Below, in pieces: positions 3,860-34,998 of a DNA stretch of 34,998 nt. Origin of the DNA: Streptomyces sp. NRRL S-1022 (GTDB lineage: Bacteria > Actinomycetota > Actinomycetes > Streptomycetales > Streptomycetaceae). The DNA lies in the NCBI RefSeq assembly GCF_000720135.1, contig NZ_JOIU01000045.1, positions 1 through 34,998 of the forward strand, given 5' to 3'. Within the stretch, counting starts at the first letter, position 1; each line of letters starts with the position of its first letter. Position numbers and translations under genes: made by a program. The notes beneath the pieces were generated by a model. It made no database searches and was not told the DNA's origin. It saw only the letters and a list, made by a program, of their open reading frames with translations.

Positions 3860-3885
3860 GGCCTCCTGCAGGCCGTTCCCCTGTG

Positions 3886-3925
3886 GTTGAGCGGAACCCG
3901 GCAATTTTGCCGGGTTCCGCTCAAC
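3886..3925. terminator. Perfect 19-bp-arm hairpin
   Basis: Arms 3886-3904 and 3907-3925 are perfectly complementary around a 2-nt centre. It follows the small-protein trio and precedes the GGDEF gene by about 50 bp, as expected for a factor-independent terminator, although no T-run follows. Its core (GGAACCCGGCAA and complement) is shared with the hairpin at 9679-9716. Confidence 0.75.
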
Positions 3926-3972
3926 CGGGCGGCTTGCCTCCCCCTTGCTCGCCTTGTTGGAGAGGCACACCC

Positions 3973-6376: not shown

Positions 6377-6831
6377 CCCGCCGCCGCGATCCCCGCCAGA
6401 TGAACGGCGGATACCAGCTGACCATGTTCGACACCGAGCCGGAGCCCGCCACCCAGGCGGCCCCGGCCCTGGGCCCCCAGTCGCCAATTGGCGACTGCCC
6501 CCCGGCGGCCGCCACCACCACGGTGGTGGACCTCCACGGCCACCAGGACGACCCCGAGTACGCGGACGTCGTGTACGTCGGCCGCCCCAACTTCCAGGGC
6601 GGGTGGCGCCTGCACGGTCACGTGCTCGCCAACCCCTACCGGGTGGGCAAGCACGGCGACGCCGCCGAGGTGGTCGAGCGGTACCGCGCCTGGCTCGCCG
6701 AGCGGCCCCAACTGGTGGCCCGCGAGCTGTCGAAGCTGCGCGGCCGGCGGCTCGGTTGCTGGTGCGCCGAGGGGCAGCCATGCCACGCCCGCGTCCTGGC
6801 TGAACTGGCAGATCAGGGGGTGAGCGCGTGA
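6370..6831 (+). CDS. DUF4326-like protein
   Basis: A 153-aa protein; ATG 6370 overlaps the methyltransferase stop. The C-terminal half matches the DUF4326 pattern found on phages and plasmids: YVGRPNFQGGWRLHGHVLANPY, then a helix, then LRGRRLGCWCAEGQPCHARVLAEL with a CWC...C-H cluster that could hold a metal. The molecular function of DUF4326 is not known to me. The N-terminal linker carries QSPIGDC, encoded by a perfect 20-bp palindrome. It is part of the same coupled operon as the methyltransferase. Confidence 0.75.
   Translation: MVTRRRDPRQMNGGYQLTMFDTEPEPATQAAPALGPQSPIGDCPPAAATTTVVDLHGHQDDPEYADVVYVGRPNFQGGWRLHGHVLANPYRVGKHGDAAEVVERYRAWLAERPQLVARELSKLRGRRLGCWCAEGQPCHARVLAELADQGVSA
6478..6497. 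repeat. Perfect 20-bp palindrome inside the DUF4326-like gene (copy 2)
   Basis: CAGTCGCCAATTGGCGACTG is its own reverse complement. It encodes QSPIGD, the same hexapeptide as copy 1 at 1650-1669 in the unrelated DUF2637 gene. Confidence 0.9.
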
Positions 6832-7241
6832 GCCAGGAAGAGGAGTTCAACCCCTGGAAGTGGGACCGCAAGAACTACATGGCGGGCAAGTCCCGGCTCA
6901 CCGTCGAGCGGCACGGCCACGAGGTGACGCTGGACCACCAGGGCGTGTCCATCGACGGTCAGCGGATCGTGCGGGACAACCCGGGCCGGGGGGAGCACGG
7001 ATTCGAGATCACCCCGTCCGGGAGCGTGCTCTACCGCGGCAAGGAGATAGCCGCCATCGACCCCCCGACGAACGGCACCGCCAACCCCGGCGAGGTCACC
7101 GTGTACGGCGAGAACGGCCCCGCCGCCCGCGAGCGGCAGAACAGCGAGGAGGCCGAGCGGCGGCAGCGGGACGACCGGTACCGCGCCAGCGAACAGCACC
7201 ACCAGCAGGAAGTCACCCGAGATCAGGAGATGACGCTGTGA
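6828..7241 (+). CDS. Hypothetical 137-aa protein
   Basis: GTG 6828 overlaps the previous stop (GTGA), and its stop overlaps the next GTG, so it is firmly in the operon. The N-terminus is mixed (EEEFNPWKWDRKNYMAGK), the middle alternates beta-strand-like segments (LTVERHGHEVTLDHQGVSID), and the C-terminus is charged and helical with many Q, E and R. I do not recognise the family. Soluble, cytoplasmic by appearance. Confidence 0.65.
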   Translation: MSQEEEFNPWKWDRKNYMAGKSRLTVERHGHEVTLDHQGVSIDGQRIVRDNPGRGEHGFEITPSGSVLYRGKEIAAIDPPTNGTANPGEVTVYGENGPAARERQNSEEAERRQRDDRYRASEQHHQQEVTRDQEMTL

Positions 7242-8058: not shown

Positions 8059-8703
8059 GTGCTCATCGCGAACATCAGCCCACGATCCATGGGCAAGACC
8101 ACGGATACGGGCTTCATGGCCCACGCTCTGCACGAGGTCGGTTACACCGTCCGCGCGTGGGACGCCGACGAATCCCAGCACCTCACGCAGTGGTCGGAGG
8201 CCGCCGGCGGTTTCCCCTTCCCCGTCGAGAAGAACGCCACGGCCACCTTCGCAACCGATGTCGAATCGCTGAAGGGCGGGATCGACATCGTGGACGTCGG
8301 CCACACCGAGAACCACCCGCACATTGCCGACTCTGTGTTGAAGGTCGCAGACCTTGCCATCCTGCACATGGAGCCATCCATGGCCGACTGGCAGCGGGTC
8401 ACCCAGCCGCGCACCTCCACCCCCATCACGGACATCGTGGCCCGCTCGGCGTTCGCACGCCCCGGACGCCAGGCCCCGCCGCTGTGGGTGCTGTTCAACC
8501 GGGTTCGGACCGGGGTCCGGTCGGCGAAGGACATCCGCGACATGATGCGCGAAGAGGGCTGGAACCTGTTCACCGTGATGATCCCGGTTCGGGACGAGAT
8601 CAAGCAGGCGACAGCGTTCCCCGTCGAGCGCGCCGCGCACGGCCCCTTCGGTGAGCTGGTCACCGAGATGGAGACGAGGGGACTGATCAAGCGTGACGCG
8701 TAG
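8059..8703 (+). CDS. ParA-like partition ATPase with a divergent P-loop
   Basis: A 214-aa protein starting at GTG 8059 (GGAGAAAG upstream). The start MLIANISPRSMGKTTDTGFMAHAL fits the ParA/MinD deviant Walker A region, but the signature first lysine of KGGxGKT is missing: the loop reads SPRSMGKTT. DADES and IDIVDVGHTENHP correspond to the A' and Walker B segments, and a FNRVRTGVRSAKDIR stretch matches the usual later helix. ParA proteins form dynamic nucleoid-bound gradients that separate plasmid copies. The next gene overlaps its end by 11 bases and would be the partner DNA-binding protein. Loss of the signature lysine could alter ATP-dependent dimer switching. Confidence 0.8.
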   Translation: MLIANISPRSMGKTTDTGFMAHALHEVGYTVRAWDADESQHLTQWSEAAGGFPFPVEKNATATFATDVESLKGGIDIVDVGHTENHPHIADSVLKVADLAILHMEPSMADWQRVTQPRTSTPITDIVARSAFARPGRQAPPLWVLFNRVRTGVRSAKDIRDMMREEGWNLFTVMIPVRDEIKQATAFPVERAAHGPFGELVTEMETRGLIKRDA

Positions 8704-9682
8704 GCGTGACCTGCGGGCGGGGGCCGCCGCGACAGCCGCCACCCAGACCCCGACGAACGGCTCGACCGCTACCGCCGCCTCCACCGGCACCGCCCTGGAC
8801 ACCACTCAGGACACGAGCCCGTCGAAGCTGCGGGACCAGCCGTTCACCCTCGCGCACTGGGGCGCCACCCTTCCTGAGCGGGACGTGACCCCCGAGGAGG
8901 CGAGCGGACCGCTCCGCCCCGATGAGCTGGAGCAGCTGGCCGAGTGCCACCGTGCCATCGACAACGCCCGCTCCGCCCAGTGGATGCTGGGCCGCGCTCT
9001 GGAGATCGTGCGCCGGCGACGTCTGTACCGCGGTGACGGGTCCCGGACGTGGCCCCAGTACCTGGCCGCTGAGCACGACGGCATGACCGAGCGAGACGCA
9101 CGCCGGCTGCAGGAGGAGTGGCGGCTGGCCAAGGCCGTACAGGACGCCCTGGGCAAGCCCGCCCCGGCGTCCCATGTCCGGGCCATGCTCGACTACGCCG
9201 ACAGCACCTCCGACGAGCAGGCCGCCCACGCCTACGTGATGCTCCGCTCCGCGTTCGAGGCAGCCCAGGTACGCCTGGCCGCTCACCAGATCACGGCCCG
9301 AGTCGCCAAGGCCCTGGAACCCGCTGCCGCCGAGAAAGACCCCGAGAACCGCCGTCAGGCGGTCGAAGTCCGATGGCGCGAGATCCACGCCCCCCGGCCG
9401 TCGATCCCCGCGCCCGCGAAAGCCCCAGACGCTGCATTGACAGCCCCAAAGACGAAGGAAGCTGCCGATCCCCTCGCGGAGGCCGTGACCGCCGTAGAGA
9501 GGGCCCTGGAGCGCGTCGACAATGCCCTGATGGATGAGAGTGCCACCCTGCGACGCTCCGCCGTCGACGCCGAGCACCTGCAGAAGCGCCTCCGCAAGGT
9601 GGGCCGCATCCTCGCCAAGGCCACCGTCCCGGCCGATGACGTCATCGACGCCGAGGTAGTGGAGGACCGAGCCCATGATTAA
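8693..9682 (+). CDS. Probable ParB-like partner of the ParA-like ATPase
   Basis: A 329-aa protein; GTG 8693 lies inside the ParA-like gene. Disordered Thr/Ala-rich N-terminus (1-50), a central helical domain (about 80-200) with SRTWPQYLAAEHDGMTERDARRL as a possible HTH, a Pro/Ala linker, and a C-terminal helix pair (about 260-310) suited to dimerisation. It lacks a clear ParB CTPase motif (GERRxR), so it is not a canonical ParB. The call rests on the ParA neighbour and the coupled arrangement. It ends in the stem of a perfect hairpin. Confidence 0.6.
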   Translation: MTRRRDLRAGAAATAATQTPTNGSTATAASTGTALDTTQDTSPSKLRDQPFTLAHWGATLPERDVTPEEASGPLRPDELEQLAECHRAIDNARSAQWMLGRALEIVRRRRLYRGDGSRTWPQYLAAEHDGMTERDARRLQEEWRLAKAVQDALGKPAPASHVRAMLDYADSTSDEQAAHAYVMLRSAFEAAQVRLAAHQITARVAKALEPAAAEKDPENRRQAVEVRWREIHAPRPSIPAPAKAPDAALTAPKTKEAADPLAEAVTAVERALERVDNALMDESATLRRSAVDAEHLQKRLRKVGRILAKATVPADDVIDAEVVEDRAHD

Positions 9683-9727: not shown

Positions 9728-10420
9728 TCAGCTCAACGGCGTTGAGCGACGCGGGGGCGGTACGGCCCGCAGCAGCTCCCACAGCGGGCGCGAGCCCGCC
9801 GCCCACACGCCCAGCGTCTGGCGGTCGACCACGTGCAGCCGTTGCTGCTTGGCGAACGTCACCGCCGGCGCGGTCACCCGCCCGTTCGTCACGATGACCG
9901 CCACATCCGCACCATGCACCTGCCGGGCCGTGCCGTTGAGCACCTGCAGGTCCGGGGTGCCCACCGCCGAGCCCCGGACCCCGTTGCGGCGGTGCTTGCA
10001 CTGGATCACCCAGCGCCGCCCGTACGGATCGGTCGCCTTCACATCGGCGCCCAGGTCCCCACCGCCGCCGACCCTCTGAGCATCCCGGCAGCCGTCCCGG
10101 CGCATCAGATCCCGTATCGCGTCTTCGAACCGGGAGTGGTGCAGTGCGTCCAGCTGCGGCAGCCCGTAGCGCAGCCCCTGCGCCCGCACCGCCTCCCACC
10201 GGGCCTGTTGCCGAAGGCTGTAGAGCCAGCCGCCGCCCGCGAGGCCAGCGAGGACCAGGAGCAGGGCGATCACCCACCAATGGGCCAGCAGCCAGTGGAC
10301 CACCGTCACCACCACCGCGAGCGCCACGGCCGCCGCCAGGAGGAAACCGATCAGATCGGAGTCCTTTCGCCGACGACCGGGCCGCCTCGTGCGCCGCCGC
10401 GCCGGCGACCGCCGCGTCAC
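9728..10420 (-). CDS. Membrane-anchored Mrr-type restriction endonuclease-like protein
   Basis: A 230-aa protein; GTG 10420 overlaps the upstream stop (GTGA) and has GGGGGA before it, which decides the start over a longer frame. An Arg-rich N-terminus (RRSPARRRTRRPGRRRK) precedes two adjacent hydrophobic helices (about residues 24-44 and 49-65). The C-terminal half is an Mrr-type PD-(D/E)xK domain: LHHSRFEDAIRDLM, GGGGDLGADVKAT, and VIQCKHR with the QxK catalytic pair, then GADVAVIVTNGRVT. All expected catalytic residues are visible. Mrr enzymes cleave modified or foreign DNA; membrane anchoring suggests action on DNA near the envelope. It shares architecture with 24497-25195 and, loosely, 20176-20916. 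Confidence 0.88.
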   Translation of the reverse strand: MTRRSPARRRTRRPGRRRKDSDLIGFLLAAAVALAVVVTVVHWLLAHWWVIALLLVLAGLAGGGWLYSLRQQARWEAVRAQGLRYGLPQLDALHHSRFEDAIRDLMRRDGCRDAQRVGGGGDLGADVKATDPYGRRWVIQCKHRRNGVRGSAVGTPDLQVLNGTARQVHGADVAVIVTNGRVTAPAVTFAKQQRLHVVDRQTLGVWAAGSRPLWELLRAVPPPRRSTPLS

Positions 10421-13916: not shown

Positions 13917-15668
13917 GTGCCGGGTTACCAAGCCGCCACCGGGTCCTCGTGTGCCCTCAACGCATCGCTGAAAGGCATTCGCATCGTAGCTCATGGCTGC
14001 GGTGTTGGCCCAGTGCGCCCTGGCTCCGGTGTGTCCATCTCATCGGCGTCGGTGCAGGCCAGCCCGCATTCGTTGATTCGAGATCACGCTGCTGTACTTC
14101 GGTTTCCCAAGATCACCCTGACCATGTGGTACCGGGTAGCGGAGCTGGCGTACGGGCGTGGCTTGCTGCCCGACATGAAGTACCGCTTGGCCCGGTTCCT
14201 CTCCCAGCAGGAGCTGGACCCCGCGACCGGTCGAGTGGTCGGTCAGTGGGGCACCGGCCGCACGGACGGAGGTATGACCCTGGCCGCCCGCTACGCCTGG
14301 CAGTTCGGCGTAGGAGAGGACCGGTTCTGGGACGACCTTAAGGGCCTGTACCGCTATGGGTTCGCCGCCCGGGTCGTGGCTCCGGCCCCCGGCCGGCGGG
14401 CGGTCTACGCCCTCGTCCTCCGGGTCGACGCCATCCCGCGCGACCTCCCGGACGACCTGGCCCAGCAGCTGAAGGTCTGGGACCTCCCCGAGGTCGAGGA
14501 CCCCTACGAGGACGTCCGGTACGGCCACCTGACCGATGCCGCCGATGCCGCGGTGCTGTCCGGCGAACCCGAAGTCGTCGCTGTGGACGAGGAGGGCGCC
14601 GCCGAGCTGGACGCCGCCCCGCGCTGGGAGCATGCGGCCGGCTCCCCGGCGGCCGCAGCAGCCGAGGCCATCCGCCGCTCCGCCAAGGCCCTGGGCAAGG
14701 GGGCCGGGCCGCAGGATCTGCGGTGCTGGGCCGTGGCCGACCGCGACCGCGCCGAGGCCCTGACTCACCGCCTGATGACCAATGGCAAAACGTCCCCTCT
14801 TAACGCGAGGGAAGTTTCACCACTATCTGGTGTTCTTTCTACCGGTAGTAGGGGGTTGAGCTGGTCAAACGAGATGGGACAAGCAAAAACGACGCCTTCG
14901 GCGGCGCCTGGAAAGCAGCCTGCGTTCCTGTCCGGTGACGACCCTCACGCCGTCGCAGACAGGGTCTTGCGCCGCGCCTGGCACGCCTGGCGGGCCCAGC
15001 TGGGCCACGGCAAGGTTCTTTTGCCCTCCGGGCACTGGGACGAGCTTGGACGCTGGCAGGCGGCTTCCGCGTGGACCGACCTGCAGCGCACGGTTCGGAT
15101 CGCACTGCGCCGGGCCACCGAGTACGAGTTGGTCGAGCTGTTGTCCAGCAGTGTGACCGGGGTGGACGACGTGGGCCGCCTGGCCGCGTGGAGGCTGTGG
15201 CGCCTGATCAACGACCGGCGCAACGCCCACCGCTACGGCGGCCGCCGGCGCCCCGTCGCCCAGGCCGACCACGTCACGAGGTGGGACCACGTCCAGACCG
15301 CCGTTGCCGAGCGGACCCGCATCATGGCCACCCCCGCCACCCCGGCGGACCTGCACGACCGCCAGGCCGAGCTGCGCGAGCAGGAGCGCCGCCGCGAGGC
15401 CGCGCGGATCGCGGCGGAGGCCGAGCTGCGGCGGGAAGCCGAGCGAGCCGAACTGTCCGGCCGCTGGGGACTGGACCGGTATGCCCCGCGCCCGCAGCAG
15501 GAGCAGCCGCGCCGCTGGGCATCCCGCGAGCCGGAGGCCCTGCACGAGGCGCAGATGGAGGACCGGCGCCGTCTCGACATGCCCCTGACGCGGTCGAGAG
15601 ACGAGGAGACCTACCGGGCGGCCCTGGCCAGGGCCCGCGCCGAGAAGCGCGCCCGACGCCACAGCTGA
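13917..15668 (+). CDS. Large hypothetical protein, candidate plasmid replication initiator
   Basis: Open frame of 583 aa from GTG 13917, but the true start is unclear: residues 1-50 look non-coding, no ribosome site is seen, and coherent protein begins around LIRDHAAVLRFPKITLTMWYR (14074-14136). The N-terminal domain (about 65-200) is helix/strand mixed and could be a winged helix; a middle linker follows; the C-terminal region (about 340-430) is Trp/Arg-rich and helical (LRRAWHAWRAQLG, WRLWRLINDRRNAHRYGGRR), ending in a long charged helix. I cannot name the family. A replication role is suggested by size, basic character and an AT-richer patch with three dyads inside the gene (14795-14848), but this is inference. 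A 5' frameshift is possible. Confidence 0.5.
   Translation: MPGYQAATGSSCALNASLKGIRIVAHGCGVGPVRPGSGVSISSASVQASPHSLIRDHAAVLRFPKITLTMWYRVAELAYGRGLLPDMKYRLARFLSQQELDPATGRVVGQWGTGRTDGGMTLAARYAWQFGVGEDRFWDDLKGLYRYGFAARVVAPAPGRRAVYALVLRVDAIPRDLPDDLAQQLKVWDLPEVEDPYEDVRYGHLTDAADAAVLSGEPEVVAVDEEGAAELDAAPRWEHAAGSPAAAAAEAIRRSAKALGKGAGPQDLRCWAVADRDRAEALTHRLMTNGKTSPLNAREVSPLSGVLSTGSRGLSWSNEMGQAKTTPSAAPGKQPAFLSGDDPHAVADRVLRRAWHAWRAQLGHGKVLLPSGHWDELGRWQAASAWTDLQRTVRIALRRATEYELVELLSSSVTGVDDVGRLAAWRLWRLINDRRNAHRYGGRRRPVAQADHVTRWDHVQTAVAERTRIMATPATPADLHDRQAELREQERRREAARIAAEAELRREAERAELSGRWGLDRYAPRPQQEQPRRWASREPEALHEAQMEDRRRLDMPLTRSRDEETYRAALARARAEKRARRHS
14795..14848. other. Three dyads in an AT-richer patch inside the 13917 gene
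   Basis: CCCTC/GAGGG (14795-14799, 14807-14811), CACCA/TGGTG (14818-14822, 14828-14832) and the palindrome CTACCGGTAG (14839-14848) sit within 54 bp. The surrounding 14780-14900 is less GC-rich than the rest of the gene. Candidate origin or regulator site embedded in a coding region. Confidence 0.5.
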
Positions 15669-20175: not shown

Positions 20176-20916
20176 TCAGGAAGCCGGGGGCAGCGTCCGT
20201 TCCGCCAGCTGCCCGACCGCCGCCATCCGGGCCGAGTCCCACCCAGGCTGGGGCGGAAGGCTCCGGAGCAGGCCCCGCAGTCGCTTCGCTTCCACCACGG
20301 TCACGCCCTGCAGTTCGAGCCGGCCGCGCGGCGCCGGGACCTTCGCCCCATGCACGGCGACCACCGGGCGGACCGGGACGCCGAGCGCGCGGGCCGCCTG
20401 TTCGGCCTCCCAGACCACCGTCTGCAGGGCGCGAGTCTGGTCGTACCGGCCGTACCGCAGGGTCCCGCCCTGCACGGCCAGCCGGGACTTGTCCGACGTC
20501 CAGTTCTTCGTGTCGACGTACGCCGCGCCGGCGGCCGTGAAGACCAGGTGGTCCAGGTTCGCGCGGCTCCCAGGGATGGCCCGATCGTGGAGCACCACGG
20601 CGTGGCCCCGGCGGACGAGCGGGGCCAGGAGCCGCGCCGTCCGGGCCTCTCCAGCGGCGCCCACCGCCCAGCTGTTGTGGGCCCGCCGGTATAACCGCCG
20701 GACGCCGAGTCCCGCGACGACGAGCGCGGCGACCAGGCCGAGCTGCCAGTTCCCCACGGTGGCCACGGCCCAGCCGACCACCGCGGCGGCCGCCGCGAGG
20801 AGCGGCAGCACCACCTTGGCCCGCCGATGCTGTGCCGCCCGTTCCGCCGCCCGCGCGGCCTCTCCCATCCGTCCCGCGCTCGCGCCCGCGCCGCCCCGGT
20901 ATCCAGCCGTCGTCAT
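20176..20916 (-). CDS. Membrane-anchored NERD (nuclease-related domain) protein
   Basis: A 246-aa protein from ATG 20916. A helical N-terminus (about 1-32) precedes two membrane helices (about residues 34-52 and 57-73). The NERD domain follows at about 82-185: GAAGEARTARLLAPL, HDRAIPGSRANLDHLVFTAAGAAYVDTKNW, with the D...D-x-K catalytic pattern of PD-(D/E)xK nucleases intact. A C-terminal region with VTVVEAKRLRGLLRSL ends the protein. NERD proteins are widespread on actinobacterial plasmids; their substrate is not well established. It is one of three membrane-tethered nuclease-fold proteins here. Confidence 0.88.
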   Translation of the reverse strand: MTTAGYRGGAGASAGRMGEAARAAERAAQHRRAKVVLPLLAAAAAVVGWAVATVGNWQLGLVAALVVAGLGVRRLYRRAHNSWAVGAAGEARTARLLAPLVRRGHAVVLHDRAIPGSRANLDHLVFTAAGAAYVDTKNWTSDKSRLAVQGGTLRYGRYDQTRALQTVVWEAEQAARALGVPVRPVVAVHGAKVPAPRGRLELQGVTVVEAKRLRGLLRSLPPQPGWDSARMAAVGQLAERTLPPAS

Positions 20917-24473: not shown

Positions 24474-24503
24474 GGGGTAACAGTCGGAGCGGACTGTTAC
24501 CCC
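24474..24503 (-). terminator. Perfect 12-bp-arm hairpin overlapping the stop of the 24497 gene
   Basis: GGGGTAACAGTC (24474-24485) pairs with 24492-24503 around six bases. The TAA stop of the minus-strand gene lies inside the stem, an unusual but workable terminator position. Confidence 0.75.
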
Positions 24504-25195
24504 GACCGTGCCGGAAGACCGAGGTCGTCCAGTGACTCTCCAGCCGCCCAACGCTGTAGCTGGCGGCCGTCGAGGAGCTGGACGCCGCCCTGGCGGGAGG
24601 CCCAGAGCACGTCCGTGCGGCTGAAGCCGCCGAGGTGGACCACGACCCGGATCAGGCGGTCGATCCCGGGTCGGCCGGCCTCCCGCAGGGGGGCGGGCAC
24701 GCCCTCGTCCTCGTCCGTGGCGGCCGAGCTCGCCACCGGGCGGAACGCGACGTCGAGTTCACGGCCCCGGCGGTCCCGGGCGTACAGGCGCGGCCGCCCC
24801 TCGCGGGCGGTCAGGTCGACCACGCGCCAGCCGTCGCGCCGCAGCATCCGCGCGGCCGCCACCGCCAGGCCCTGGTCATCGAGCCGGGTCAGCTCCGCCG
24901 CGGTGTAGTGCCCGCCGCGCCGGCGGACCACCGCCCGGCGCCAGCGCACGCCCACCGCGGCGGCCGCCGCGAGCAGCACGACGCCTAGCACCAGGCCGCC
25001 GACGCCGAGCGCGCGGTAGAACCAGACGAGCAGCAGGACGGGCGCGAGCACGGCCAGGACGAGGCCGACGAAGCCGGGGAGCACGTCGCGGAGTTCGGGC
25101 CCGTACCGGCCCTGGGCGCGCAGTTCGGAGACTGCCCGCTGCCGTTGGGAGCGCCGGGACCCAGGCACGGGAGGATGCCTCCACCACAGATCCAC
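24497..25195 (-). CDS. Membrane-anchored Mrr-like protein, probably inactive
   Basis: I start it at GTG 25195 (232 aa), eight bases after GGGGAG; a frame from 25351 would add 52 residues of poor quality. A basic N-terminus with RRSQRQRAVSELRAQG leads into two membrane helices (about residues 38-58 and 64-84). The soluble part has the Mrr-type order: LDDQGLAVAAARMLRRDGWRVVDL, RDRRGRELDVAFRP, then VQLLDGRQLQRWAAGESL, which lines up with LHVVDRQTLGVWAAGS of the 9728 gene. The QxK catalytic pair is not apparent, so it may be a non-cutting homologue. Third of three membrane-tethered nuclease-fold proteins on the plasmid. Confidence 0.65.
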   Translation of the reverse strand: MDLWWRHPPVPGSRRSQRQRAVSELRAQGRYGPELRDVLPGFVGLVLAVLAPVLLLVWFYRALGVGGLVLGVVLLAAAAAVGVRWRRAVVRRRGGHYTAAELTRLDDQGLAVAAARMLRRDGWRVVDLTAREGRPRLYARDRRGRELDVAFRPVASSAATDEDEGVPAPLREAGRPGIDRLIRVVVHLGGFSRTDVLWASRQGGVQLLDGRQLQRWAAGESLDDLGLPARSG

Positions 25196-25423: not shown

Positions 25424-25442
25424 AGCGTGTGCACGCTACGAT
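25424..25442 (+). promoter_or_regulatory. Operator copy 1 (AGCGTGTGCACGCTA) and leaderless -10
   Basis: The 15-mer at 25424-25438 is a dyad (AGCGTG-TG-CACGCT). It runs into the -10 TACGAT (25437-25442), seven bases before ATG 25450, so binding would repress the SprT-like gene. Identical 15-mers occur at 26761 and 26898. Confidence 0.75.
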
Positions 25443-25449
25443 TTGCAGC

Positions 25450-26241
25450 ATGACGACTCAGGAGGGGACTCGGATCATCACCGCCCTGGAATCGGTCTGG
25501 GGCGCGATCCAGAAGCACCACCCCGACGTTCCAGACGTCGTGATCGTGACTGGAACCGGGCAGAAGCGACGCAGCACCAAGCGCCTGACGCTGGGCCACC
25601 ACGCGGCGGACCGCTGGCAGGACGCAACAGCTGCCGGCCGCCGAGCGGAGCTGTTCGTGTCCGGCGAGGCCATCGCTAAGGGAGGCGAGGTGGTCGTGGA
25701 GACGATGCTGCACGAGGCAGCGCACGCGCTCGCGGCGGTCCGGGGCATCCAGGACACCTCATGTGCGGGCCGCTGGCACAACCGCCGGTACGCGGCCCTG
25801 GCGCAGGAGCTGGGGCTGGAGCCGCCGAAGCGGGCCGCGAAGGTGATCGGGTTCTCGGAGGCCCTGATCACGGCCGCCACGGTGAACCGGTACGCGGCCC
25901 AGATCCGGAAGCTGGACGCGGCCGCGCTCGCGCACATCGAGGAGTCCAAGGGCGACGAGACCGAGCCCGGCGAGGACCAGGAGCAGGACGAGAACAACCC
26001 GGGCCCCCGCGGCGGTCGAGGCCGGGCCGGGAAGCGCCTGGCCGTCGAGTGCGGCTGTGAGACGCCCCGCCGGATGCAGGTCACCCCGGCTTTCCTGGAA
26101 GAGGCTCCGGTGCTGTGTGGGCGGTGCAGGCAGGAGTTCCAGCCCCGGGAGCCAAAGCCGGAATCGACGCTGGAACTGGTGCTGCAGCTGGGCGAGGAGC
26201 CCGCGCCGGCCGAGCCCGTCGCGGCGCGGGTGACGCCGTGA
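25450..26241 (+). CDS. SprT-like zinc metalloprotease-type protein
   Basis: A 263-aa protein from ATG 25450 (leaderless promoter, no ribosome site). The core ETMLHEAAHALAAVRG carries the HExxH zinc motif (His88, Glu89, His92), and RWHNRRYAALAQELGL about 18 residues later supplies the likely third ligand, His110; this order matches SprT-like proteins, some of which degrade DNA-protein crosslinks. An acidic linker follows (about 175-195), then a zinc ribbon: CGCETPRRMQVT and LCGRCRQEF, similar to the C-terminal ribbon of SprT proteins. Its stop overlaps the HNH gene start (GTGA). Actual protease activity and substrate are not shown by sequence; trimming of proteins bound to transferred DNA would be a fitting role. 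Confidence 0.82.
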   Translation: MTTQEGTRIITALESVWGAIQKHHPDVPDVVIVTGTGQKRRSTKRLTLGHHAADRWQDATAAGRRAELFVSGEAIAKGGEVVVETMLHEAAHALAAVRGIQDTSCAGRWHNRRYAALAQELGLEPPKRAAKVIGFSEALITAATVNRYAAQIRKLDAAALAHIEESKGDETEPGEDQEQDENNPGPRGGRGRAGKRLAVECGCETPRRMQVTPAFLEEAPVLCGRCRQEFQPREPKPESTLELVLQLGEEPAPAEPVAARVTP

Positions 26242-26756
26242 CTGCCGAGCCGACCACGGCGGTTCCGTGGCAGGCCCTGGCCGCCGACCCGGCGACCGTG
26301 GAACGGTACGAGGCCAAGGTGTACCGCGGCCCCGGCCCGACGTCATGCCACTGGTGGCTGGGGGCCATCAGCGACTCCGGACACGGCAAGCTCCGGGCGG
26401 GCAGCCGCCCGGCGGGCACCTCCCGCGTGGTCTCCGCCCACGTGCTGGGCTTCGCCATCCACCAGGGCGCGGCCGCCCTGCAGGCGGGCGCCATCGTCCG
26501 GCACAAGTGCGACGAGGCCAGCTGTCAGAACCCGACGCACTGGCTGATCGGTGACCGCCTGCAGAACATCCTGGACTTCCAGGCCCGTCGCGGGCTGACC
26601 GGTCACCCGCTCGCGGACGTGCGGGGCGCGGCGGGCCGGGCCGTCGCCGTCCGGGACGCCATCCTGGCGGCCGCCCCCGGCGAGGAGGCCGCCGCCATCG
26701 CGGCCGCGCTCGCGGCCGGGCACCCCTCCGGCGACCGCCAGGACACCCTCTGGTGA
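26238..26756 (+). CDS. HNH endonuclease-like protein
   Basis: A 172-aa protein; GTG 26238 overlaps the previous stop. The middle matches the phage-type HNH_3 pattern: CHWWLGAISDSGHGKL, then VVSAHVLGFAIHQGA, then IVRHKCDEASCQNPTHW, LIGDRLQNILDFQARRG. The histidines, asparagine and the two cysteines of the zinc-like knuckle are present. An Ala-rich C-terminal helix (about 125-160) follows. HNH enzymes of this group nick or cut DNA and include free-standing homing enzymes. Co-translation with a SprT-like protease is unusual. A copy of the repeated 15-bp dyad begins four bases after its stop. Confidence 0.82.
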   Translation: MTAEPTTAVPWQALAADPATVERYEAKVYRGPGPTSCHWWLGAISDSGHGKLRAGSRPAGTSRVVSAHVLGFAIHQGAAALQAGAIVRHKCDEASCQNPTHWLIGDRLQNILDFQARRGLTGHPLADVRGAAGRAVAVRDAILAAAPGEEAAAIAAALAAGHPSGDRQDTLW

Positions 26757-27248
26757 ACGAAGCGTGTGCACGCTAGGCCGAACGGACGCACCGGGCCCAG
26801 GTTGAGGGGTCTGCCTCGCACCGCCGGAGGACGCTCCCGGCGGTGACCCCGGTATCCCGTAGCGGCCGGGCAGGGGCCCGGTTGCCGGGCCGCGTGAAGC
26901 GTGTGCACGCTAGACCTGGAGGCGTCCGGCCGAGCCGGACCAGGCGCCGCACCCGCCGCCGAAAACCACGCCTGGTAACAGTCGAGGCCCGCCCACGCGC
27001 TGCGGGTCGGGCCTCTGTCGTCGTCGGCACAGGGTAGCGGGCAGCCGCCCGCAGTCGTCAACACCCGCCCGTCCAGCGTCCCAAGGAAGGCCAGCCAACC
27101 CGCCCAGGTCCATCGGACAGGTAGCACCCCAGCAACGACCCAGACCACCAGCACCTAGCAGGTCATCGGACCCACGACAGCCACCCAAGGACCCAGACCA
27201 CCTAACGATCCGTCACTCTCAAGGTACAAGCATCTCTCTAACACACCC
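26757..27248. other. Intergenic region upstream of the relaxase: operator copies and candidate oriT
   Basis: No gene is convincing here. Dyad copies AGCGTGTGCACGCTA at 26761-26775 and 26898-26912; an 8-bp-arm inverted repeat GAGGCCCG/CGGGCCTC at 26984-26991 and 27008-27015; a 13-mer GACCCAGACCACC twice (27137, 27190); GACAGCCACCCAA at 27176-27188, found again after the relaxase at 32054. From about 27050 to 27250 the plus strand is visibly C-rich and G-poor. Position just upstream of a MobF relaxase makes this the best oriT candidate. Confidence 0.55.
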
Positions 27249-27278
27249 TTGCATTACCATCCGATGGCCACTTACAGT
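27249..27278 (+). promoter_or_regulatory. Leaderless promoter of the relaxase gene
   Basis: TTGCAT (27249-27254), an 18-bp spacer and TACAGT (27273-27278) lie seven bases before ATG 27286. No ribosome site is seen, as expected of a leaderless transcript. Confidence 0.65.
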
Positions 27279-27285
27279 GATCTGC

Positions 27286-30200
27286 ATGACTGCCACCGTG
27301 AGCCCGGGATCTGACCCCGGGTACCTGATCAATCAGGTCGGTAAGGGTGGCGAGCACTACTACTTGAAGTCGATCGAGCAGGCGGGGGAGCCCGCCGGGA
27401 TGTGGCTCGGGGACGGTGCTAAGGATCTTGGTCTGACCGGCGAAGTTGATCACGAGCTGATGTCAGACATGTACTCGAAGTTCACGCACCCTCAGTTCCA
27501 CGCGCGGGTTCGCGCGTCACTCTCCGCAATCATCGCCGAGCCGGGTTCGGACGAGTGGAAGGCGGAGGTGGCGGCCGTCTACGACGCTGCCCGGGTCGGC
27601 CGGAAGCCGTACGACTACGCGAAGTCGACGGAGGAGAAGGTGGCGGCCGCGCTGGAGAAGCTGGGCCCGGACGCCACTCCTGAGCAGCGCCGTGAGGCGG
27701 AGCTGAAGGTGCGCCAGAACGCCCCCTCCAGCCGCTCGTACTACGACGTCACGTTCAGCGTGCCGAAGTCGTACAGCCTGCTGCACGCCGGGTTCCAGAT
27801 CGAGGCCCAGCGGCTCCGCGAGGCCGGCGACCTGGAGGGCGCGGCCGCGGCGGCCGCCAAGGCGGACGCGGTATGGGAGGCCGTGATGGAAGGCGTCCAG
27901 GCCGGGCTGGAATTCCTGCAGGAAGAGGCCGGGTACGCCCGCGACGGACGCCATGGCGCCAAGGACGCCGAGGGCGCCCCGACCGGCCGCCAGGTCGACG
28001 CCCACCGGTGGACGATCGCAAGCTTCCGCCAGCACACGAGCCGGGACAACGACCCGCAGCTGCACGTCCACAACGCCATCTGGAACCGCGTGCAGGTCGA
28101 GGAAGTCGACCAGGTGACGGGCGAGGTCCGCTCCAAGTGGCTGACCATCGACGGGCAGGAGATTTACCGGCACACCAAGGCTGCCGGGCACATCGCCGAG
28201 AAGGCGTGGGACGAAGCGCTGTACCGCAAGCTGGGTATCCGCGCCGCCATGCGCCCGGACGGCATGGCCCGCGAAATCGTCGGCATCAGCGAGGAGAAGC
28301 GCGACAAGTACAGCTCCCGCCGGCGGACCATCACCAAGGGCACCGCCGAGCTGGCCCGCGCGTACGAGGACCGCGAGGGCCGCCCGCCGGGCGCCCACGA
28401 GCTGGCCCGGATGGCGCAGTGGGTGAACCTGGCGGAGCGCAAGGGCAAGACCGCCGCCGTCCCGCGCGAGCAGCTGCTGGAGCAGTGGGAGGCGGACATG
28501 GTGGCCGACACACGTGAGTCCCTGGCGGACATTCCAGCTCAGGTGGAACGCGCATCGGCGGAGTTGGAACAGCGCGCCGTCGACCTGGAATCGGGGCTGG
28601 AATTCGACCCCGCGAAGGTGGTGCGGACCGCCGTCGAGAACGCCCAGGATTCCAAGAGCGCGTGGCGTCGCGGTGACCTGATCGTGGAGATCACCAAGGC
28701 GCTTCCGGACTGTCTCGGCGGGTTGGAACGCAGCCAGGTGCGCGCCCTCGTCAACGAGCTGGTGGACGCGGCGTTGCAGTCGGGCGCGGACACCGAGGTG
28801 GTGCGGCTGACCGCCCGCAACCTGGTTCCGCTTCCCCCCGAGTTGACCCGTGATGACGGGCTGAGCGTGTACGCCCGCCACGGTGCCGTCCGGTACGCCA
28901 CGAAGGCCCACCTGGAGCGCGAAGGACGGGTAATCGAGCAGGCGACAGAGCTGGGCGCCCCCGCTGTCTCCCGCGAGGCGATCGAGGCGGCCGTGGCCGA
29001 GGCCGGGCTGAACGAGGGCCAGGAGAAGGCGTTCCGCTCCATCCTCGCGTCCGGCCGGCGCATGGAGGTTGTGGCCGCCCCCGCAGGTACTGGAAAGAGC
29101 CGTCTGGCGGGTGCGATCCACGACACTTGGACGCAGCAGTGCGGCCCCGTGATCGGCCTGACCGTCAGCCAGCGCGCGGCCCGTGTGCTGTCCGAGGAGG
29201 GCGTGCGGAACGCGCAGAACATCGCCAAGTTCTTGGACGTTCACCGTCGCCTGGAATCCGGTGCACCCGTGGCCGAAGACGAGCGGGCAGCGTTCCAACT
29301 GCAGTCCGGTCAGCTGATCCTCGTGGACGAGGCATCCATGGCGGAGACGGGCCAGCTGGACGAGATCCGCCGCGTGGCCGCCCGCGCCGGCGCCAAGGTG
29401 CTGTACGTGGGCGACAACGCCCAGCTGGACAGTGTCGGTTCCGGCGGCATCTTCTCCCAGCTCACGGACGAGCTGCCGAACGTGCACCGCCTGGACCAGG
29501 TGATGCGGTTCAAGTCCGAGTGGGAGAAGCGGGCGTCTTTGCGGCTGCGCCAGGGCGACGCGGCCGTGCTCGCGGAGTACGACGCCCGTGGACGTCTCCG
29601 GGCTGGAACCCGTGAGGAGATGCTGGAAGCCTCGTACCAGTTCTGGCTGGCCGACCACGTGGCCGGTAGGGACGCGGTGCTGATCGCCCCGACGAAGGAG
29701 CAGGCGGACGAGCTGGCCGCCCGTGCACGGCAAGACCTTGTGCGGCTTGGCCAGGTCGAGGCCGAGGGCATCGAGCTGCCGGACCGCGGGCTGACCGTCG
29801 GCAAGGGCGACATGATCCAGCTCCGCAAGAACAGCCGGCGGATGACCACCGCGTCCGGCGAGCGGTTCGCCACGAACCGGGACGTGGTGAAGGTGCTGGG
29901 CATCGCCGAGGATGGCGCGGTGACCGTCGCCTACGACGACGGGGACACACTCCAGCTTCCGCCCGAGTACGTGCAGGAGCACGTCGACCTGGCGTATGCG
30001 GGCACCATCCATTCCACCCAGGGCCGCACGGTTGGAACAGCACACAGCTACTGGGACGGCACCGGTTCCAGGGAAGCCTTCTACGTCGCCATGACCCGCG
30101 GCCGCGAACGGAACACCGCCTACATGTCCACGGACATGCCAGGCGTGCCCGCCGAGCAGCGGCCGGACCCGATGGCCCTTTACAAGCAGACGCTGGAGAA

Positions 30201-32016
30201 CAGCAGCGTCGAGAAGTCGGCCACCCAGGTGCAGCGCGACGAGGAAGCGTGGGCGCAGTCCCTGGCCAAGCACACGTTCGAGCTGGAAGACCTGGCGACC
30301 GAGCACGCCACCACGAAGCTGGGCCGCGTGCTGTATGAGGAGCTGGGCGCTGAGCGGTACAGCGAGCTGGCCAGCAGCGAGGCGTTCGGGTCCCTGATCC
30401 GTCTGGGCCGGGCCGCCGAGGCGGCCGGGTACGACGCCGAGGGCATCATGCGGACGGTGGCCCAGGGACGACTGGAGGATGCCAAGGATCTGGGGAAGGT
30501 GCTGCACTGGCGGGCGGAGCGTGAGCTGGAGGCCGCCGAGCGGCGTCAGGTCCGCGCGGACGAGCAGCGCGTGCGCGAGGCCGTCGAGCGGCAGGAAGCC
30601 ACGGTCAACGACCTCATGGGGCAGCTGGCCACCGCGCCCGTGGCCCACGTCGGCCACGAGGTGAGCGACGAGGCGCAGGCGGAGGCCCTGCGGCAGGCCG
30701 AGGTCATGCAGCAGGCGCCCATCCTGGCCTGGAACGGCAGCCAGGAGGACGCCCTGGCCGCGCAGCAGGCGGTCATTCAGGCCCAGGTCATCGACCCGGC
30801 GGGGACCCAGCGCGCGGCCGAGGCGGCCGCCGCCGAGCAGGCGCAGCAGCAGGCCGCCCTGGACCAGGTGATGGCCATGCAGCTGGGCGCCGAAGTGCTG
30901 CACGGGCAGCAGGAGGGCCAGGAGCGCCACCGCATCGCGGAGGAGCACCGGGCGGCCGCCGAGGAGCGCACCGACTGGCGGAACCGCGTCGCCGACATCG
31001 AGGGCCGCAAGGGCGAGTACGCCCGCGCCGTGGCGGAACTGGCCGAGGAGAAGCGCCTGGAACTGGGCCGCCAGTTGCTGGAACAGGCCGAGGCCGGGGA
31101 GCTGCCGCAGTGGGCGCAGCAGCTGGGCCCGGTGCCGGACGCCCCCGAGTGGCGGGAGCGCTGGATCGAGCGCGCTGGCACCGTGGCCGCGTACCGCGAG
31201 GCTCACGAGCACGACCACGAGCGCGACCCGATTGGCCAGCGGCCGGGCCGCGGTGCGGTCGACGTCCGCCAGGACTGGGACCGGGCATACCGGGCCCTGG
31301 GCGAGCCGGAGGGCCGGATCGAGCTGGTGGGCGCCACCGACGCCACACTGCGGCGCATGGTCGAGCAGTACGAGCGCGAGACCGAGTGGGCACCGCCGCA
31401 CGTCGCTGACCAGCTGCGTCTGGTCAGCGAGTCCGTGACCGAGCTGCAGCGCGAGGCGGTACAGAAGCTGATCGAGGCCCGCGAGGCGGAGGAGCCGGCA
31501 CGGGCCGAGGAGCTGCAGGCCGCCGTCGAGGGCTACGACGCCCTGGCCGCCCAGCTGGAAGAGGACCGCGAGGCCCTGGAAGAGGTCCATCAGGCACGGC
31601 AGGCCTGGCACGACCACACAGAGGACGTTCGGGCCCAGGCGCAGGAGGCACAGCGGCAGCTGGAACTCCGCGCGCCGGAACCCCAGGCGGCGCCGGAGGC
31701 CCTGGAACTGCAAGAGGACGTGCAGGAACCGACGCTGGCACCGGAGCTGGAACGGCCGGAGGCCGGCGAGCAGGAGCGGCTGCGCGAGGCCCACGAGCGG
31801 GCCCACGCCGAGGGCCAACCGCTCACCCGGGAGGAGCTGCAGCAGGCCGTCCAGACCGCAGCCAGGGCGACGGAGATCCTGGCCGACCGCGAGCAGACCC
31901 GGCAGATGGAGGAAGCCGAACGCGCCCGCCGGGACGAGCCCGTGGTGGTGCAGCAGCCGGAACAGCAGATCGAGGTCCCGGAGATCGACCCCAAGGGGCA
32001 CGAGGTCGGGCTGTAG
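27286..32016 (+). CDS. MobF-type (TrwC/TraA-like) relaxase-helicase
   Basis: A 1576-aa protein from ATG 27286. The N-terminal relaxase domain (about 1-400) has a tyrosine pair in GGEHYYLKS (Tyr25/26) as likely nucleophile, SYYDVTFSVPKSYSLLH, and the metal-binding DPQLHVHNAIWNR near residue 255. A RecD-like SF1 helicase follows: Walker A VVAAPAGTGKSRLAG near residue 600, LILVDEASMAETGQLDE (Walker B), VGDNAQLDSVGSGG, and motifs V/VI GTIHSTQGRT and YVAMTRGRERN near 910-945. The remaining 600 residues are a long Ala/Glu/Gln-rich coiled coil. The enzyme nicks oriT, stays bound to the 5' end and unwinds the plasmid for transfer. The coupling ATPase on the other side of the circle would receive it. 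Length is typical of actinobacterial TraA-type MobF proteins. Confidence 0.95.
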   Translation: MTATVSPGSDPGYLINQVGKGGEHYYLKSIEQAGEPAGMWLGDGAKDLGLTGEVDHELMSDMYSKFTHPQFHARVRASLSAIIAEPGSDEWKAEVAAVYDAARVGRKPYDYAKSTEEKVAAALEKLGPDATPEQRREAELKVRQNAPSSRSYYDVTFSVPKSYSLLHAGFQIEAQRLREAGDLEGAAAAAAKADAVWEAVMEGVQAGLEFLQEEAGYARDGRHGAKDAEGAPTGRQVDAHRWTIASFRQHTSRDNDPQLHVHNAIWNRVQVEEVDQVTGEVRSKWLTIDGQEIYRHTKAAGHIAEKAWDEALYRKLGIRAAMRPDGMAREIVGISEEKRDKYSSRRRTITKGTAELARAYEDREGRPPGAHELARMAQWVNLAERKGKTAAVPREQLLEQWEADMVADTRESLADIPAQVERASAELEQRAVDLESGLEFDPAKVVRTAVENAQDSKSAWRRGDLIVEITKALPDCLGGLERSQVRALVNELVDAALQSGADTEVVRLTARNLVPLPPELTRDDGLSVYARHGAVRYATKAHLEREGRVIEQATELGAPAVSREAIEAAVAEAGLNEGQEKAFRSILASGRRMEVVAAPAGTGKSRLAGAIHDTWTQQCGPVIGLTVSQRAARVLSEEGVRNAQNIAKFLDVHRRLESGAPVAEDERAAFQLQSGQLILVDEASMAETGQLDEIRRVAARAGAKVLYVGDNAQLDSVGSGGIFSQLTDELPNVHRLDQVMRFKSEWEKRASLRLRQGDAAVLAEYDARGRLRAGTREEMLEASYQFWLADHVAGRDAVLIAPTKEQADELAARARQDLVRLGQVEAEGIELPDRGLTVGKGDMIQLRKNSRRMTTASGERFATNRDVVKVLGIAEDGAVTVAYDDGDTLQLPPEYVQEHVDLAYAGTIHSTQGRTVGTAHSYWDGTGSREAFYVAMTRGRERNTAYMSTDMPGVPAEQRPDPMALYKQTLENSSVEKSATQVQRDEEAWAQSLAKHTFELEDLATEHATTKLGRVLYEELGAERYSELASSEAFGSLIRLGRAAEAAGYDAEGIMRTVAQGRLEDAKDLGKVLHWRAERELEAAERRQVRADEQRVREAVERQEATVNDLMGQLATAPVAHVGHEVSDEAQAEALRQAEVMQQAPILAWNGSQEDALAAQQAVIQAQVIDPAGTQRAAEAAAAEQAQQQAALDQVMAMQLGAEVLHGQQEGQERHRIAEEHRAAAEERTDWRNRVADIEGRKGEYARAVAELAEEKRLELGRQLLEQAEAGELPQWAQQLGPVPDAPEWRERWIERAGTVAAYREAHEHDHERDPIGQRPGRGAVDVRQDWDRAYRALGEPEGRIELVGATDATLRRMVEQYERETEWAPPHVADQLRLVSESVTELQREAVQKLIEAREAEEPARAEELQAAVEGYDALAAQLEEDREALEEVHQARQAWHDHTEDVRAQAQEAQRQLELRAPEPQAAPEALELQEDVQEPTLAPELERPEAGEQERLREAHERAHAEGQPLTREELQQAVQTAARATEILADREQTRQMEEAERARRDEPVVVQQPEQQIEVPEIDPKGHEVGL

Positions 32017-33443: not shown

Positions 33444-34100
33444 TCAGGCTGGAACTTCGCCCGTCTTCAGCATGTGGATGTACTGCTGCAGGTCTGGGGG
33501 AGTTTCCACCTTCTTGTTCTCCAGCGGGTCCTTGTGGCCGTTGTACGGGTTGGTCCTGCCGTACTGGTCGGGCGGTTCCGGGCGCACGTTGCAGCCGTCG
33601 AGGATGAACCGGCCCTGCCGCACCGCGTCCGGCAGCCACCGGCCCAGCCACTCGGCTACCCGCAGCGGCCCCGATTCCGGGTCACGGAAGGCCCAGTTCC
33701 AGGCGGCCATCAGGCCGGTGAGGGCTTCCACCATGTCCGGGTGCAGGTGCCAGCAGGACACCGGCATCTTGTGGTAGCCCAGCATCTCCGCAAAGGACCG
33801 CGGATACCGCACCCGGAAAGTGCCCATCGTCCATTCCAGCAGGATCTCCCACGCCTGTGCCTGCTGCTGCGAGTTGAACGTCGACCAGTCCCAGACGGGG
33901 AACTTCTGCGCCTCCGGCTTCTCCGTCAGCTTCTTCACGGTCAGCGCCAGGTCCGCCACCGTGTCCGGGAGGCCGAAGCCTTCCAGGGCCTCCAGCCGTT
34001 CGGACACCCCGTCGAGGCGCTTGCCCAGATCCCGACTGCGTTCCCAGAGTGCCAGCACGTCGCGCGACGGCTCGGCGGCCCCACGGCTGCGCTCGCTCAT
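33444..34100 (-). CDS. DUF4913-like protein of the transfer operon
   Basis: A 218-aa protein; ATG 34100 overlaps the stop of the coupling ATPase (ATGA). A helical N-terminus with coiled-coil character (about 15-55) precedes a Trp-rich domain: VWDWSTFNSQQQAQAWEILLEWTMGTFRVRYP, then CWHLHPDMVEALTGLMAAWNWAF. This pattern fits the DUF4913 proteins that accompany VirD4-like ATPases on actinobacterial plasmids; the family label is from memory. No enzymatic motif is seen. As last cistron after the ATPase it is probably an accessory adaptor of the coupling complex. Confidence 0.72.
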   Translation of the reverse strand: MSERSRGAAEPSRDVLALWERSRDLGKRLDGVSERLEALEGFGLPDTVADLALTVKKLTEKPEAQKFPVWDWSTFNSQQQAQAWEILLEWTMGTFRVRYPRSFAEMLGYHKMPVSCWHLHPDMVEALTGLMAAWNWAFRDPESGPLRVAEWLGRWLPDAVRQGRFILDGCNVRPEPPDQYGRTNPYNGHKDPLENKKVETPPDLQQYIHMLKTGEVPA

Positions 34101-34998
34101 GCGGTGTACCTCCGGTCAGCGTCAGCGGCCGGGTAGCCGTACCCCGGCTGGGAAGGCACGCCCGGAGCCTGCACGGGCTGCTCATGGACGATCGGGGCCG
34201 TCGAGGGCATCTGCGGAGGCAGCACCGGCTGCTCCGGCCGGATGCCCAGCTTCTTCAGATCCTCGTTCAGCTTGCCCCTGGCCTTGGCTGCCTTGGCGAG
34301 GTAGCGGGGGCCCTTCCTGTTCAGCTTGGCCTCCAGTTCCAGCCGGGCCTTGTCATGCTTGGCGAGCGCCCTGACGTCGGCACGCTGCCAGACCGGCGTG
34401 AAGCGGTACCGGATGGGCGGCAGGTGCCGGTAGAAGATCAGGCCGGTGCCTTCAGCCATCTGCCGGATGGCGTCCTGGGGCATGACCCGGGCCCGCCGAA
34501 CGGAGATGCTGCGCGACTGCTTGTCGTCGTCCGTGCGGTTCGGGGAGGCGATCTCCTCGTCTTTCTCCCCGCACAGCAGGGAGAGTTCTTCCAGATCCTG
34601 TGGCAGCGACAGGCCGCCCAGGACCACGCGCGTGCTGTTGTTCATGATGGTCTGCGCGCCGTTCGTTCCCCATCGGTCGCGCAGCTGGGACGGGGACTGG
34701 ACGGAGATCAGCAGCTGGATGTTGCGGCCGCCGGCATCCGCCGACCACAGGTGAAGCGGCAGGGGACAGATCACGGCCGCCTCGTCTAGGACCATCCGCA
34801 GGTACGGGTCCAGTCGTCCGCCGGGGGAGTTGTCCGCCCGGACGTAGGCGGCATCGTAGATTTCGCCCACCAGCGCAGAGAATAGCGGGGCGACGGAGCC
34901 GTACCGCATGTCCCGGCCCATCACGTAGAGCGTGCCGCGGCTGTTGAGGAAGTCCTGGACGTCGAACTTCTGCTCCCCGGGGCGGGGGCTGACGATCT
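34097..34998 (-). CDS. VirD4/TraG-like conjugative coupling ATPase, C-terminal part (continues at 1-1231)
   Basis: C-terminal part of the coupling ATPase that begins at 1231 and crosses the circular join; 34900-34998 duplicates 1-99. It carries the Walker B strand LRMVLDEAAVICPL (aspartate near residue 449 of the joined protein), then LLISVQSPSQLRDRWG and NNSTRVVLGGLS, the sensor region seen in VirD4/TraG proteins. The tail (about 590-677) is Lys/Ala-rich and then Pro-rich, probably a flexible partner-binding region. The stop overlaps the DUF4913-like start. Confidence 0.9.
   Translation of the reverse strand, partial: IVSPRPGEQKFDVQDFLNSRGTLYVMGRDMRYGSVAPLFSALVGEIYDAAYVRADNSPGGRLDPYLRMVLDEAAVICPLPLHLWSADAGGRNIQLLISVQSPSQLRDRWGTNGAQTIMNNSTRVVLGGLSLPQDLEELSLLCGEKDEEIASPNRTDDDKQSRSISVRRARVMPQDAIRQMAEGTGLIFYRHLPPIRYRFTPVWQRADVRALAKHDKARLELEAKLNRKGPRYLAKAAKARGKLNEDLKKLGIRPEQPVLPPQMPSTAPIVHEQPVQAPGVPSQPGYGYPAADADRRYTA
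34900..34998. repeat. Terminal direct repeat, right copy (circular join)
   Basis: Identical to 1-99; see the left copy. Removing one copy gives a closed 34,899-bp circle. Confidence 0.93.

Follow-up and report, generated by a model that had tools for sequence, protein, structure and literature searches.

Beside the relaxase operons of two lineages of Streptomyces MobF plasmids lies a gene for a membrane-anchored relative of Mrr that, judged by its sequence, is a conserved pseudonuclease held under purifying selection without its catalytic residues, and that is in many of these plasmids accompanied by a membrane NERD protein. We describe this arrangement from a 34,998-nucleotide stretch of DNA from Streptomyces sp. 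NRRL S-1022 (hereafter the window; contig C45 of the host genome assembly G000). The window is most likely a circular plasmid, because a coupling-protein frame of 736 codons runs through the joined contig ends. It carries three minus-strand genes whose products have, as a preliminary description had reported, a membrane segment at the N-terminus and, after it, a PD-(D/E)xK-type domain: a membrane Mrr-type nuclease (9728..10420), a membrane NERD protein (20176..20916) and the Mrr-related pseudonuclease, pseudo-Mrr (24497..25168, with a reading frame extendable to 25351). That description took the three for a set with a shared task at the membrane. We tentatively favor another explanation, plausible if somewhat short of probable, in which Mrr is an ordinary member of a restriction family while pseudo-Mrr and NERD form an establishment pair, encoded where the leading region of MobF plasmids likely lies.

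Pseudo-Mrr combines a helical hairpin with a degenerate Mrr-like domain in which the catalytic Asp and Lys of Mrr are both replaced by Arg. The earlier characterization of this protein as degenerate and Mrr-like is borne out: it is homologous to the membrane Mrr across 178 columns that include the membrane part (hhalign 96.6%, E 6.6e-10), and its predicted structure (AF2, pLDDT 84) matches solved PD-(D/E)xK enzymes. It has no Pfam match at E 0.1, and hence falls below the cut-off of Mrr_cat (PF04471). Catalytic loss extends through the family. In two overlapping sets of 119 relatives and 105 loci, the latter including the window, the position of the Mrr Asp holds Arg in 118 and His in 1 of the relatives, and Arg in 83, His in 20 and Ala in 2 of the loci. 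The position of the Lys is Arg in 116/119 relatives and 102/105 loci and Lys in none, and that of the Gln is Ala or Gly in 96/119 and 84/105, respectively. Among the more distant plasmids that we call lineage II, these positions read His, Ala and Glu in all six aligned proteins. Because every aligned relative is without the catalytic residues, pseudo-Mrr is not expected to cut DNA alone. Omega values (NG86) are 0.25-0.52 for 15 pairs from six plasmids of the window's own lineage and 0.23-0.65 for 10 pairs from lineage II; pairs are not independent, and NZ_CP108823 was excluded because its pseudo-Mrr gene crosses the record start. We therefore reject the idea of a decaying pseudogene, as the Asp and Lys are absent family-wide and yet both sequence and selection are conserved.

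The membrane Mrr has a basic N-terminus, a hydrophobic membrane segment and an Mrr_cat domain (PF04471: 1.4e-22, 80.5 bits against a curated cut-off of 21). The residues of its D...QxK motif, D150, Q164 and K166, are each at 100% in 121 aligned rows, and omega is 0.20-0.25 (NG86, 3 pairs). It is the sole one of the three proteins to score against PF22722, weakly, at 18.1 bits for a cut-off of 27. Relatives of Mrr amount to 1466 proteins at E 0.001 and occur in 173 plasmid records, and among the best 120 of the 1466 several sit on chromosome-sized contigs; those from Streptomyces are named restriction endonuclease and, once, putative transmembrane restriction endonuclease. The host genome itself holds six further Mrr_cat matches; among them is a protein encoded on a different contig that is closely related to the plasmid Mrr (3.4e-100) and retains the full motif. 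No phage copies of Mrr were found in a phage search. These sequence data mark the membrane Mrr as a common, catalytically intact Streptomyces family of chromosomes and plasmids, and its most likely role is the restriction of foreign DNA at the membrane. The protein resembles other Mrr_cat enzymes that have a membrane segment in domain, catalytic residues and the segment itself, and differs from the family only by its place beside partition genes. In the window its gene is convergent with the gene that follows a ParA-like gene (8693..9682, plus strand), 45 bp away; the same convergence is seen in NZ_CP108823 and NZ_CP043961, with gaps of 45-115 bp across the three. NZ_CP107842 likewise has the pair, which brings to four the plasmids with Mrr beside partition genes. 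A remnant of the Mrr gene (L009, 28560-28793, minus strand; 35 residues at 94% identity) also adjoins a counterpart of the gene after ParA. We considered, and do not favor, a restriction-modification system formed by Mrr and the plasmid's cytosine methyltransferase, as sister plasmids without Mrr also have methyltransferases.

The membrane NERD protein consists of a helical hairpin and a PD-(D/E)xK-type fold, the latter evident from a structural match of its predicted model (AF2, pLDDT 92), and it matches Pfam PF08378 (7.3e-10, 39.8 bits against a curated cut-off of 22.1). Its catalytic-type residues are intact and conserved in 121 rows (E126 97%, D158 100%, D171 99%, K173 100%), so that the earlier claim of intact catalytic residues in Mrr and NERD holds with 97-100% conservation at the key positions; omega is 0.12 (NG86, 1 pair). 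No profile relation was detected between NERD and either Mrr or pseudo-Mrr (2.1% and 21.3% in the two comparisons). The repeated architecture on which the preliminary description built thus reflects descent in the case of Mrr and pseudo-Mrr, but for NERD it is a likeness of fold and layout, and common ancestry of all three is unsupported at the profile level. Phages of Streptomyces likewise have NERD relatives, in seven records at 44-45% identity and annotated as hypothetical; among these phages are Keanu, Galactica, Spocter, Hiyaa and ZL12, and the membrane NERD protein also matches PHROG 38277 at 4.7e-31. The phage search found no copies of pseudo-Mrr. The phage NERDs suit a tool that different types of mobile element employ better than they suit host defense. 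In two Nocardiopsis plasmids (NZ_CP074136 and NZ_CP080600) a distant NERD match (37%) lies less than 1 kb from a MobF relaxase match, and the neighborhood of NERD and MobF may extend beyond Streptomyces.

The distribution of the three genes among related plasmids separates Mrr from the other two. The window encodes a MobF relaxase-helicase of the TrwC/TraI type (27277..32016, plus strand; Pfam TrwC 1e-39 and AAA_30 9.7e-51), annotated as mobF in sister plasmids, and the C-terminal part of a VirD4/TraG-type coupling protein (34097..34924, minus strand; TraG-D_C 1.1e-21), whose frame runs on through the joined ends as far as roughly position 1300. With these two transfer genes present, no VirB4-like mating-channel gene was found among the window's open reading frames scanned with Pfam. 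Six sister plasmids of 31-46 kb, with relaxases 75-88% identical to the window's, make up lineage I together with the window. Pseudo-Mrr is carried by 6/6 of them (7/7 with the window), Mrr by 2/6 (3/7), with a remnant in one more, and NERD by 1/6 (2/7): one plasmid has pseudo-Mrr and NERD, two have pseudo-Mrr and Mrr, and three have pseudo-Mrr alone, one of these with the Mrr remnant. A conserved three-gene module is therefore rejected, and with it the proposed set with a shared task, since 0/6 sister plasmids carry all three. Among the matches listed (120 per family), with contigs equated by their length and, where given, their strain, apparently at least six more contigs have pseudo-Mrr with Mrr, including a chromosome of 9.4 Mb; at least two more have pseudo-Mrr with NERD, and there is no further trio. 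All seven lineage-I plasmids have pseudo-Mrr next to the relaxase operon and on the other strand. The operon's first gene (25429..26241, plus strand; a phrog_6361 relative), divergent from pseudo-Mrr, is retained in 5/6 sister plasmids, and the gene at 26115..26756 (plus strand), which precedes the putative oriT, in 6/6; the latter is without a Pfam match here, and its counterpart in NZ_CP043961 is annotated as an HNH endonuclease. A further lineage-I contig, L044, has Mrr about 1.2 kb from pseudo-Mrr and no NERD within its covered sequence, and two lineage-I genome contigs (S. virginiae and S. niveus) have both pseudo-Mrr and NERD, about 3 kb apart.

Other genes of these plasmids include a GGDEF (diguanylate cyclase-type) domain gene in the window (3883-4560, plus strand), with relatives at 74-83% identity in 2/6 sister plasmids, and, in the sister plasmid HNM0561 (L008, 31421-31885, minus strand), a gene annotated as a Pycsar system effector family protein. 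A 583-residue protein (13917-15668, plus strand) that is 88% identical in two sister plasmids has no Pfam or PHROGs match; as a guess, it is a candidate replication protein.

The same placement of pseudo-Mrr recurs in lineage II, which comprises 13 plasmid records with relaxases 42-44% identical to the window's. Pseudo-Mrr is present in 12/13, encoded on the other strand from the relaxase at a distance of 2.2-4.1 kb from its match. Six aligned proteins match the pseudo-Mrr family profile at 6.9e-37 to 1.5e-30, and in the plasmids examined in detail the gene is divergent from those preceding the relaxase, as in the window. A NERD match of at least 72% identity occurs in 10/13 records, and in the five examined plasmids that have both, NERD and pseudo-Mrr are convergent and 61-67 bp apart. 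Of the remainder, NZ_CP109180 has neither gene in the sequence searched, NZ_CP109353 has pseudo-Mrr and no NERD within 44 kb, and NZ_CP108170 (L121) has pseudo-Mrr with a NERD remnant at the usual convergent place (6822-7172, minus strand; E 6e-08). Across 57 plasmid records with NERD matches, 11 reach at least 72% identity across no less than 58% of the query, and pseudo-Mrr is present in 11/11; because ten of these belong to lineage II, they amount to about two independent cases of the pairing. To say that NERD always comes with pseudo-Mrr would be too strong, as none of the remaining 45 records (below 60% identity) is in the pseudo-Mrr lists, nor is NZ_CP109251, which has a 54-residue NERD piece at 71%. 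The plasmid link proposed in the preliminary description accordingly stands for pseudo-Mrr and NERD, which repeatedly neighbor the relaxase operon in two MobF lineages, but not for Mrr, so that the earlier interpretation as a whole is partly supported.

Between the relaxase gene and the gene before it lies a putative oriT (26974..27022; GGTAACAGTC), in which two bases separate GGTAACAG from an inverted repeat with arms GAGGCCCG (26984-26991) and CGGGCCTC (27008-27015), followed by TGTCGTC. This layout is present in 19/19 sequences that include the relaxase start, 18 of them distinct and drawn from three relaxase lineages: the window, the six sister plasmids, L044-L046 and L017 (with the same letters as NZ_CP043961) from lineage I; L114-L119 and L121 from lineage II; and NZ_CP109058, which has a more distant relaxase (35%). 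The sequence of L113 excludes this stretch and is not counted. Single-base shuffles of the window gave such a site in 0/200. Two arm pairs change on both sides between lineages, from GAGGCCCG/CGGGCCTC to GACCCCCG/CGGGGGTC, the pattern that a stem would give, and the conserved hairpin is probably the oriT. Two copies of AGCGTGTGCACGCTAG (26761-26776 and 26898-26913) precede it, with variants in lineage-I plasmids, and may be bound by a relaxosome or regulatory protein. In the window, pseudo-Mrr and NERD lie across the hairpin from the relaxase, which is the expected leading side. The available part of one report describes plasmid leading regions as enriched for anti-defense genes and relaxase genes as typically lagging (PMC11541004); on this basis we infer the nic site and a direction of transfer in which the strand leaving the hairpin would run towards pseudo-Mrr.

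If this orientation is correct, the plasmid would enter a recipient oriT side first, and pseudo-Mrr and NERD would be made early there and insert in the recipient's membrane, with their nuclease-fold domains predicted to be cytoplasmic. Pseudo-Mrr, as a dead relative of the host's membrane Mrr, might bind the incoming DNA or pair with the host enzyme in hetero-oligomers, and either could lower restriction of the incoming plasmid; NERD might act on the transferred DNA by trimming or processing it. The establishment pair is suggested by the placement in two lineages, the pairing with NERD, the oriT side, purifying selection on pseudo-Mrr and the intact Mrr relative in the host genome. Against it stand the many pseudo-Mrr copies on genome contigs with no transfer genes close by (66 of 69 loci), the patchiness of NERD in lineage I (2/7), the 45 records of distant NERDs outside the pseudo-Mrr lists, and SmdA, the one membrane NERD protein met in our search whose role has been studied, which works in cell division rather than in DNA processing. 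A narrower version, in which a membrane-anchored dead copy of the host Mrr enters first as a dominant-negative or decoy anti-restriction protein, paired with the membrane NERD, is in our judgement rather doubtful on the sequence evidence.

The alternative that survives best, which we consider unlikely, holds that three independent membrane restriction or defense genes were gathered by chance, with Mrr and NERD cutting foreign DNA and the third gene a decaying Mrr copy. The Mrr_cat domain does score against the PADLOC models for a type IV REase (5.2e-08) and for the Mrr-like part of ZorD (1.1e-06), Mrr relatives are widespread, and the trio is not a conserved set. However, pseudo-Mrr is not decaying, being conserved without its Asp and Lys and with its position kept in two plasmid lineages. 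NERD and pseudo-Mrr, moreover, have no PADLOC match at E 0.05 in a library of described systems only, and the presence of NERD relatives in Streptomyces phages would be odd for an anti-phage nuclease.

Somewhat less likely still is a structural role, in which NERD and pseudo-Mrr would serve as membrane scaffolds of the transfer site, located for instance at septa or hyphal tips, and would anchor the relaxosome or transferred DNA near the coupling protein with no need of nuclease chemistry. The catalytic residues missing from all aligned relatives of pseudo-Mrr are consistent with such a role, as is the position of both genes flanking the relaxase operon, and the available part of the work on S. 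aureus SmdA describes a septum-enriched membrane NERD protein that acts in cell division (PMC9040797). Weak scores of NERD and Mrr to SepX/GlpR divisome models, far below cut-off, would also point this way, but the SepX match may be low-complexity membrane similarity only. NERD retains its catalytic-type residues, however, and most pseudo-Mrr loci on genome contigs have no transfer genes nearby. Entry or surface exclusion, in which a resident plasmid's membrane proteins would block or destroy a second plasmid of the same type arriving by conjugation, is improbable, since for all the membrane segments and linkage to transfer genes that would suit it, pseudo-Mrr has no catalytic residues and lies mostly away from plasmid genes.

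Pseudo-Mrr is not confined to plasmids. Its family is matched at E 1e-8 in 57/392 Streptomyces genomes, the host included, although the lowest-scoring rows could be Mrr proteins of other kinds. A plasmid-type relaxase and neighbors accompany just 3 of 69 loci on genome contigs; the other 66 have no relaxase or coupling-protein gene in the covered DNA, which is short at some loci. A plasmid-only gene is thereby rejected, and the scattering among chromosomes that the preliminary description had named as evidence against itself is what we find for Mrr and, in part, for pseudo-Mrr. At the 66 loci, pseudo-Mrr either has a use outside transfer or is a relic. Clustering of neighbors across the 69 loci yielded no partner gene common to most; the commonest, at 19/69, is a secreted protein, which we take to be chitosanase-like. 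We built a tree of 52 rows in which every other one of the 66 relaxase-free loci was sampled (33, with 31 left after a length filter). Its longest branch leads to the active Mrr and its forks within lineage I are open. Read from that branch, the root itself being assumed, the deepest split sets lineage II (98/96) apart from a group of lineage I and all sampled relaxase-free rows (99/97), and 23/31 relaxase-free rows form a later group (91/96). As the two plasmid lineages part at this deepest split, the putative pseudo-Mrr decoy may have originated on plasmids, with chromosomes acquiring it later.

Each element of the proposed establishment pair has known counterparts. Proteins of the NERD family (PF08378) such as SmdA likewise have a membrane anchor followed by the NERD domain; SmdA, as far as the available part of its description goes, is predicted to have a single membrane helix and acts in division, whereas the plasmid NERD has a helical hairpin and recurs beside pseudo-Mrr. 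The same source states that the role of the NERD domain was unstudied before that work and its biochemical function in bacteria then open (PMC9040797). Nuclease chemistry has been lost in PF22722, a NACHT-associated inactive restriction endonuclease, and in other inactive REase-fold domains, as in pseudo-Mrr; unlike PF22722, pseudo-Mrr is a stand-alone membrane protein without a Pfam match and is tied to plasmid relaxase operons. With the leading-region anti-defense genes the pair shares its expected leading-side position by a probable oriT in MobF plasmids, although the available part of that report does not mention membrane pseudonucleases (PMC11541004) and NERD and pseudo-Mrr have no PADLOC match. 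In the partial literature coverage of our search, no title dealt with a pair of pseudo-Mrr and NERD or with a membrane pseudo-Mrr beside MobF relaxase operons. Inactive REase-fold proteins and leading-region factors are thus already known, while a membrane pseudo-Mrr with a set place next to MobF relaxase operons is apparently new.

Overall, what began as a similarity in protein architecture has become a gene pair that can be tested and that has a constant location, next to the likely oriT in two MobF lineages. It bears on how Streptomyces plasmids that have a relaxase and a coupling protein, and no recognized mating-channel gene, become established in new hosts. If the proposed role is true, a dead restriction enzyme acting as a counter-restriction protein, which we did not meet in the literature searched, would be a simple principle.
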